Shown here: in pieces, positions 53,703 through 54,974 of the stretch
Layout: the number at the start of each line of letters is the position of its first letter
Position numbering within the stretch: the stretch's first letter is position 1
Origin: Gemmatimonadaceae bacterium
Lineage (GTDB): Bacteria > Gemmatimonadota > Gemmatimonadetes > Gemmatimonadales > Gemmatimonadaceae
NCBI GenBank assembly: GCA_035533015.1
Contig: DATLUQ010000012.1
Span: 1 to 61,043, forward strand
Direction of reading: 5' to 3'
DNA: 61,043 nt
Translations under genes and position numbers: made by a program
Notes under the pieces: model-generated
The model's database searches: none
Told to the model about the DNA's origin: nothing
Seen by the model: only the letters and a program-made list of their open reading frames with translations

Positions 53703-54974
53703 ATGCCTGCAGTCCCGCCGCCGTCCGGCCCGGCGCCATCCGCCGGGCCACCCCTTCCTGACGAACGCGCGCTCGAGCGGGTGTTCCGCTCGCATTTTTC
53801 GGCCCTCATCGCAGAGGCCAAGAAACATCTCAAGGACTCCCCAGCGGCCGCGCCCCATGTGGTCGAAGGGCTCTTTCTCGGCGCTTGGGCTGGACGCGAG
53901 GAGTTCAAGACCGCCCAACAGCTCGAAGACTTCCTGCACGGCGAGGTGGCCCACGCGGCCGCGCGCGAATTGAGCCGCCGGGCCAGCGCCCATCACTTTG
54001 GCGGCTCGGGATCGCACGGCGGCGGCCACGCCGAGAAGGCGGCCAGCGTCGACGAGTCGTGGCAGCGTATTCACCGCACACTCCACCCCGATTCAAAAGC
54101 GGCCGCCGGCGCCATCGCCGCACATTCCAGACGGGATGCCGCCAGCCACGTGGCCGGCCTCGCCAAGCGTCGCTCGTACGTAGTGCCGATCACGATCGGC
54201 GTGATCGCGATCGCCGCTGCAAGTGGGGCGGCATGGTGGCTCAACCGGGCAGGGCGCGAGGGCGCCATCGTCGCCTCCCTCAACTCGCCCGGTGCACGCC
54301 CCCACCAGACGGGGCCCGGCCAGTTCGCCATCGTCAATCTGGACGACGGCTCCAAGATCATGCTCGCCCCGCAGTCCAAGCTCGTCGTGCCCGAGCACTT
54401 CGGGAACGACCTTCGGGTCGTGAGCCTTCAGGGCGCGGCAACGATCGACGTCGCCCCCGGGATGTCGGCCCCATTCGAGTTGCGGGCCGACAACGCGGTG
54501 ATCGACGTGCCCGGCACCAGCTTCGTGGTGCGCGCCGATACGTCCGATACAGCCATGGTCGTGTTCGTGAAGAACGGCAGCGCCACCGTACGCGTGGGTC
54601 AAGACACGAAGGACCTGCATCCCATCGCGTCCGGCGCCGCGCTGCGCATCACCGCGGGCGGCCAGGTGGCCGCGCCCACCCCCGACCAGCTCGCCGAGGC
54701 CACGTCGTGGACCGACAGCACGGTGACCATCGCGCACGAGTCGCTGGAACAGGCGCTGGCCGAATTGCGTCGCTGGTACGGCACGCACATCGTGGTGCTC
54801 GACAGCTCTCTGCTCACGCGCGACATCTCCATCCAGGCGCCGACCACCTCGTCCATGGCGGCCATCAACGCGATCGAGAAGAGCGGGAACGTCAAGTTCG
54901 AATACGAAGGGGAAACGATGGTGTTCCGGGACGCGACGCCCGCGCCCACGCCCAAGAAGCCGAAAAAGAAATAG
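53703..54974 (+). CDS. FecR-like membrane sensor with N-terminal sigma-region-2-like domain
   Basis: 423 residues. ATG at 53703 with GGAGG 5 bases upstream. Residues about 20-95 read like ECF sigma region 2 (ALERVFRSHFSALIAEAKKHLKD, then VVEGLFLGAW, then LEDFLHGEVAHAAARELSRR), but the usual acidic AEDxxQ block is PHVVEG. A Gly/His linker (97-110) and a DESW helix follow, as in FecR anti-sigma proteins. One membrane span lies at about 158-180, then a FecR beta domain (205-305) and an STN/DUF4974-like domain (340-410) ending in a Lys-rich tail. There is no sigma region 4 and no separate sigma gene nearby. Confidence 0.78.
   Translation: MPAVPPPSGPAPSAGPPLPDERALERVFRSHFSALIAEAKKHLKDSPAAAPHVVEGLFLGAWAGREEFKTAQQLEDFLHGEVAHAAARELSRRASAHHFGGSGSHGGGHAEKAASVDESWQRIHRTLHPDSKAAAGAIAAHSRRDAASHVAGLAKRRSYVVPITIGVIAIAAASGAAWWLNRAGREGAIVASLNSPGARPHQTGPGQFAIVNLDDGSKIMLAPQSKLVVPEHFGNDLRVVSLQGAATIDVAPGMSAPFELRADNAVIDVPGTSFVVRADTSDTAMVVFVKNGSATVRVGQDTKDLHPIASGAALRITAGGQVAAPTPDQLAEATSWTDSTVTIAHESLEQALAELRRWYGTHIVVLDSSLLTRDISIQAPTTSSMAAINAIEKSGNVKFEYEGETMVFRDATPAPTPKKPKKK

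Follow-up and report, generated by a model that had tools for sequence, protein, structure and literature searches.

A FecR-type membrane sensor with a cytoplasmic head derived from sigma region 2 in the Gemmatimonadaceae

Sigma/anti-sigma pairs are one main route of bacterial signalling. The window analysed here (the whole stretch of 61,043 nucleotides, contig DATLUQ010000012.1 of a Gemmatimonadaceae genome) carries a gene in which such a pair has seemingly collapsed into a single protein, one not expected to function as a sigma factor. Table 1 lists the parts of this gene. The open reading frame is a real gene, its MP start being conserved among orthologues and its architecture being common to all 50 orthologues collected in a search of related genomes for the same fusion. 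The product is a single-pass membrane protein with a region-2 head homologous to FecI-type sigma factors, a helix resembling anti-sigma helix 4, and an ordinary FecR/FecR_C sensor in the periplasm. Both periplasmic domains, which had been recognised in a preliminary description of the sequence, score above the Pfam cut-offs (PF04773 and PF16344), and residues 205-407 match PDB 4m0n, the solved structure of a putative anti-sigma factor, at E 7.6e-13.

Table 1. Position of the gene and of its parts in the window, with the evidence for each
Feature	Position	Strand	Evidence
Whole gene; 423-aa single-pass sigma2-FecR fusion	53703..54974	+	Open reading frame and translation; about 50 full-length orthologues
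Residues 20-97; cytoplasmic sigma-region-2-derived domain	53760..53993	+	hhalign, NCBIfam and PDB profile matches, fold matches, dN/dS
Residues 49-56 (AAPHVVEG); former DAED..QE core-polymerase contact, lost or charge-reversed	53847..53870	+	Column counts, 50 fusions against 39 FecR-linked sigmas
Residues 116-127; equivalent of anti-sigma helix 4, W120 in 48/50	54048..54083	+	hhalign to ordinary FecR N-termini; AlphaFold2 helix, pLDDT 81-94
Residues 131-153; juxtamembrane helix, H149 in 50/50	54093..54161	+	AlphaFold2 secondary structure; column counts
Residues 159-181; predicted transmembrane segment	54177..54245	+	Hydrophobic stretch in translation; AlphaFold2 helix 160-193
Residues 201-292; periplasmic FecR domain	54303..54578	+	Pfam PF04773, E 3.5e-13
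Residues 345-406; FecR_C domain	54735..54920	+	Pfam PF16344, E 1.1e-6

Taken alone, the N-terminal domain matched Pfam Sigma70_r2 at E 0.022, which is below the cut-off, and orthologues were therefore gathered for profile work. NCBIfam TIGR02985 was matched by 29 of the 33 aligned orthologues (best 3.8e-8), and the PDB chains listed for a profile of the head were all sigma factors, the best at 1.2e-5. Aligned by hhalign with ordinary ECF sigma factors of the same class, the head gave a probability of 99.2% (E 6.6e-20) and a score of 113.6; none of 100 column-shuffled controls scored above 22.4. AlphaFold2 confidence was high over residues 21-99. The Foldseek E-values for this model were weak (best 0.17) and the realignment with VIA-align is taken as the usable fold result; in it ranks 1 to 38 were all sigma factors or sigma-factor models, with 9n9q_C first (Z 9.6, 95 aligned, rmsd 4.0) and region 2 of sigma-E, 4lup_A, at Z 9.5 (83 aligned, rmsd 2.7), values that helical folds may reach by chance, the sequence profile being the stronger evidence. 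By homology and fold, residues 20-97 are sigma region 2, and the likeness first proposed for residues 20-95 stands. They are not an ordinary FecR anti-sigma domain, the alternative raised at the outset: residues 1-100 gave 0.2% probability against ordinary FecR N-termini in hhalign, the three-helix anti-sigma bundle was not found there, and this candidate was rejected. The closest solved match, PDB 9n9q chain C, is RpoE in an RNA-guided transcription complex.

The nearest ordinary homologues of the fusion are FecI-type sigma factors encoded beside FecR genes. Nearly all loci picked solely by sigma score had a FecR gene within 4 kb, and several ordinary pairs were in tandem order, sigma and then FecR. 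Neither hmmsearch nor hhalign with the region 4 of relatives detected a region 4 in the fusion, and these searches also ruled out one concealed in the linker; the preliminary description had already reported the absence of region 4. The segment before the membrane does match helix 4 of ordinary FecR proteins in hhalign (75%, E 2.5e-5 over 23 columns; score 33.6 against a shuffled maximum of 15.0), where the matched motif reads 'vDvdaAW.rv..RL'. Within class I pairs, sigma regions 2.1/2.2 are the binding site of helix 4, and region 4 is that of helix 1 (PMC7406223); region 4 of FecI is bound by the N-terminus of FecR (PMC9249621). The helix-4 match together with these published contacts indicates that the fusion has kept region 2 with its partner helix, and lacks region 4 with the helices that would contact it.

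The residues of region 2 were then compared column by column between 50 fusions and 39 FecR-linked sigma factors. Position 51 is E in 37 of the 39 sigmas and in none of the fusions, and position 52, acidic in 39/39 sigmas, is R or K in 47 of 50 fusions. Position 55 changes from Q (38/39) to E (34/50), position 56 from D/E (37/39) to mainly G, S, A or T, and position 84 from N (36/39) to H or E. The DAED-type acidic core-polymerase contact of region 2.2 is absent from the fusions; the replacement of the acidic block noted earlier in this protein, where it reads AAPH, is seen across the set, mostly as AAPR, AAPK, GAPR or AAAR. Ser or Thr occurs only in scattered members, and activation by phosphorylation in the manner of ECF43 was ruled out on these motif positions. 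The hydrophobic core (A23, L24, F28, A39, L43, W62, L78) and R65 are retained. In every pair that allowed the calculation, the dN/dS of the head lies at 0.07-0.25, often lower than for the periplasmic part, and the head is therefore maintained by selection. The changes are read as re-specification under constraint and not as decay. A head so altered should not bind core polymerase, and a fusion that lacks half of the sigma and the greater part of the anti-sigma domain probably does not function as a sigma factor. Since sigma residues are lost yet the domain is under strong selection family-wide, the head has probably been turned into a new signalling part.

Some match to the fusion was found in 84 of the 99 genomes of the window's family, about 50 of them full-length. 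By a count of the match list, in which the entries from 7e-19 downward are ordinary sigma genes or similar, 61 of the 298 genomes sampled from the phylum carry the cytoplasmic part with E 1e-20 or lower, and every one of them belongs to the window's family. The named matches are Gemmatimonadaceae and Gemmatimonas. With one homologue as query three related loci were obtained, two of them under these names, and with the window protein as query for related loci none was found. Judged by their FecR parts, the fusions make up a single clade (100/100). Comparison of the orthologue flanks gave no neighbour gene recurring across genera; most of the clusters of open reading frames considered as conserved neighbours were rejected as spurious antisense frames in GC-rich DNA or were confined to one close group. 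No cognate FecI-type sigma gene adjoins the fusion on the window contig or in 20 orthologue flanks, where just one sigma gene (L055, about 3 kb off) and one weak match (L054) were seen. Since the flanking genes differ between genera, the fusion most likely acts in trans.

The window genome holds 15 sigma matches. None of them is on the window contig, in keeping with the preliminary description, which saw no separate sigma gene near the fusion. Its only FecR protein is the fusion itself, so the head is not titrating an ordinary FecR here. There was no STN domain at E 1e-3 in this 95%-complete genome, and STN was detected in control genomes; 17 TonB Plug matches are present, with no TonB receptor carrying the STN domain of cell-surface signalling. 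Two site-2-type (M50) proteases and four zf-HC2 matches were also found.

Several known systems share a part of this design. The nearest precedent is IutY of Pseudomonas putida, an ECF243 sigma/anti-sigma hybrid activated by proteolysis (PMC5411451), in which an N-terminal cytoplasmic FecI-type sigma part, one membrane span and a periplasmic FecR-like domain lie likewise in a single protein (PMC5411451, PMC9249621). IutY is however a complete sigma fused to FecR, with regions 2 and 4, becomes an active sigma after cleavage by Prc/RseP and adjoins the receptor gene iutA, whereas in the fusion region 2 stands alone, the core contact is charge-reversed and no neighbouring gene is conserved. The separate FecI-FecR pairs of the same class are the nearest homologues of both halves, and differ in being two proteins from adjacent genes, with a complete sigma and a complete anti-sigma domain. 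PhyR of Alphaproteobacteria also has a sigma-like domain within a signalling protein (PMC8103513), but it has a receiver domain and binds NepR, and the fusion is a membrane-bound region 2 only. RsoA of Bacillus subtilis is a region-2-type protein lacking region 4 (PMC8103513), but it is a separate protein which works with SigO in transcription. EcfP (ECF43) has lost the DAED core-binding motif as well (PMC8999054), but it carries a phosphorylatable Thr at the motif and is a working sigma once phosphorylated, where the fusion has mostly A-P-R/K. None of IutY, PhyR, RsoA and EcfP combines all the features of the fusion. A limited literature search gave no description of the half-sigma/FecR form, hybrids with a complete sigma such as IutY being already known, and no paper for Gemmatimonas with FecR and sigma factor.

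The earlier idea of a FecR sensor that has captured sigma region 2 without region 4, and that lies apart from any sigma gene, is supported. Its wording as a one-protein sigma/anti-sigma pair fits only loosely: such a protein already exists in IutY, with its complete sigma, and the fusion has lost half of the sigma and most of the anti-sigma domain. As for origin, we infer that a single internal deletion in a tandem fecI-fecR pair would have taken region 4 along with its anti-sigma helices, so that region 2 and its own helix came to lie in one chain; no intermediates were seen. At rest, the retained helix 116-127 may cap the region-2 groove in cis. The FecR/FecR_C part would sense a periplasmic signal, and a conformational change or intramembrane cleavage would open or free the head, which may then act as a sigma mimic much as PhyR does, binding a putative protein partner without starting transcription. 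The joint reading, a cis-capped sigma mimic under periplasmic-sensor control with the deletion origin and PhyR-like partner binding, is our leading one, at a little under an even chance. It is favoured by the helix-4 match, the FecI-type homologues beside FecR, the contact reversal, the low dN/dS, the single clade and the site-2-type proteases; against it stand the lack of a neighbour gene recurring across genera and of an ordinary FecR in the genome as partner. Tentatively, and with odds appreciably short of even, the protein may be described as a membrane-anchored sigma mimic, half a sigma and its anti-sigma helix fused by deletion, with an output head that controls an anti-sigma factor or other regulator and takes no part itself in transcription. 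Selection has retained the protein in most of the genera sampled from the family. It would be a natural example of a signalling domain made from a transcription factor, and the region-2/helix-4 contact as a stand-alone switch becomes a directly testable idea.

A set of conserved histidines precedes the membrane on the cytoplasmic side (H97, H109, H128, H144 and H149). H149 is invariant in the fusions, H144 and H128 occur in about 80% of them, and no accompanying Cys motif was found. Neither the juxtamembrane helix nor its histidines have a counterpart in ordinary FecR N-termini, and these histidines could be a metal or pH site. They lend some weight to the alternative that the head is a mere stable helical adaptor, which dimerises or binds a partner outside transcription and for which the sigma ancestry is irrelevant. 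The loss of sigma-specific contact residues with retention of the hydrophobic core, and a window genome without an STN transducer or ordinary FecR, would suit such an adaptor too; but anti-sigma helix 4 is retained, which implies that a contact of the sigma/anti-sigma type is still in use, and we consider the adaptor rather unlikely.

The preliminary description had favoured a decoy, that is, a head which tethers core RNA polymerase to the membrane or competes for the enzyme. The region-2 fold is retained, and the normal binding site of sigma region 2 is the beta-prime clamp helices (PMC7406223), but contact with beta-prime usually depends on the acidic residues of the DAED motif (PMC8999054). 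Since the otherwise invariant acidic contact is charge-reversed in the fusions, with the neighbouring E, Q and D/E gone, this decoy is improbable. No better a chance is given to an anti-sigma function in trans, by which helix 116-127 would engage a separate ECF sigma at its region 2, with the head as resting-state lid of the helix; the retained helix-4 motif and the number of sigma matches in the genome would allow it, but the three-helix bundle is absent and sigma genes are nearly lacking in the orthologue flanks. Still less probable is a split sigma half that, once freed by proteolysis, would be complemented by a region-4 protein encoded separately. SigO-RsoA does divide region 4 and region 2 between two proteins (PMC8103513) and the genome has site-2-type proteases, but in the fusion the core contacts and the conserved Asn at 84 are lost, the window contig has no sigma gene and no partner gene recurs. 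An annotation, assembly or frame artefact is already refuted by the same layout in 50 orthologues from separate genomes, with dN/dS well below 1.

Two minor observations were made on copy number. One genome of the set (G083) has, besides its full copy, a second copy of the N-terminal part of the fusion at a contig end (L133, G083:C185:3500-5100). FecR matches number about 30 in genome G007 and 21 in genome G047, far above the rest of the family.
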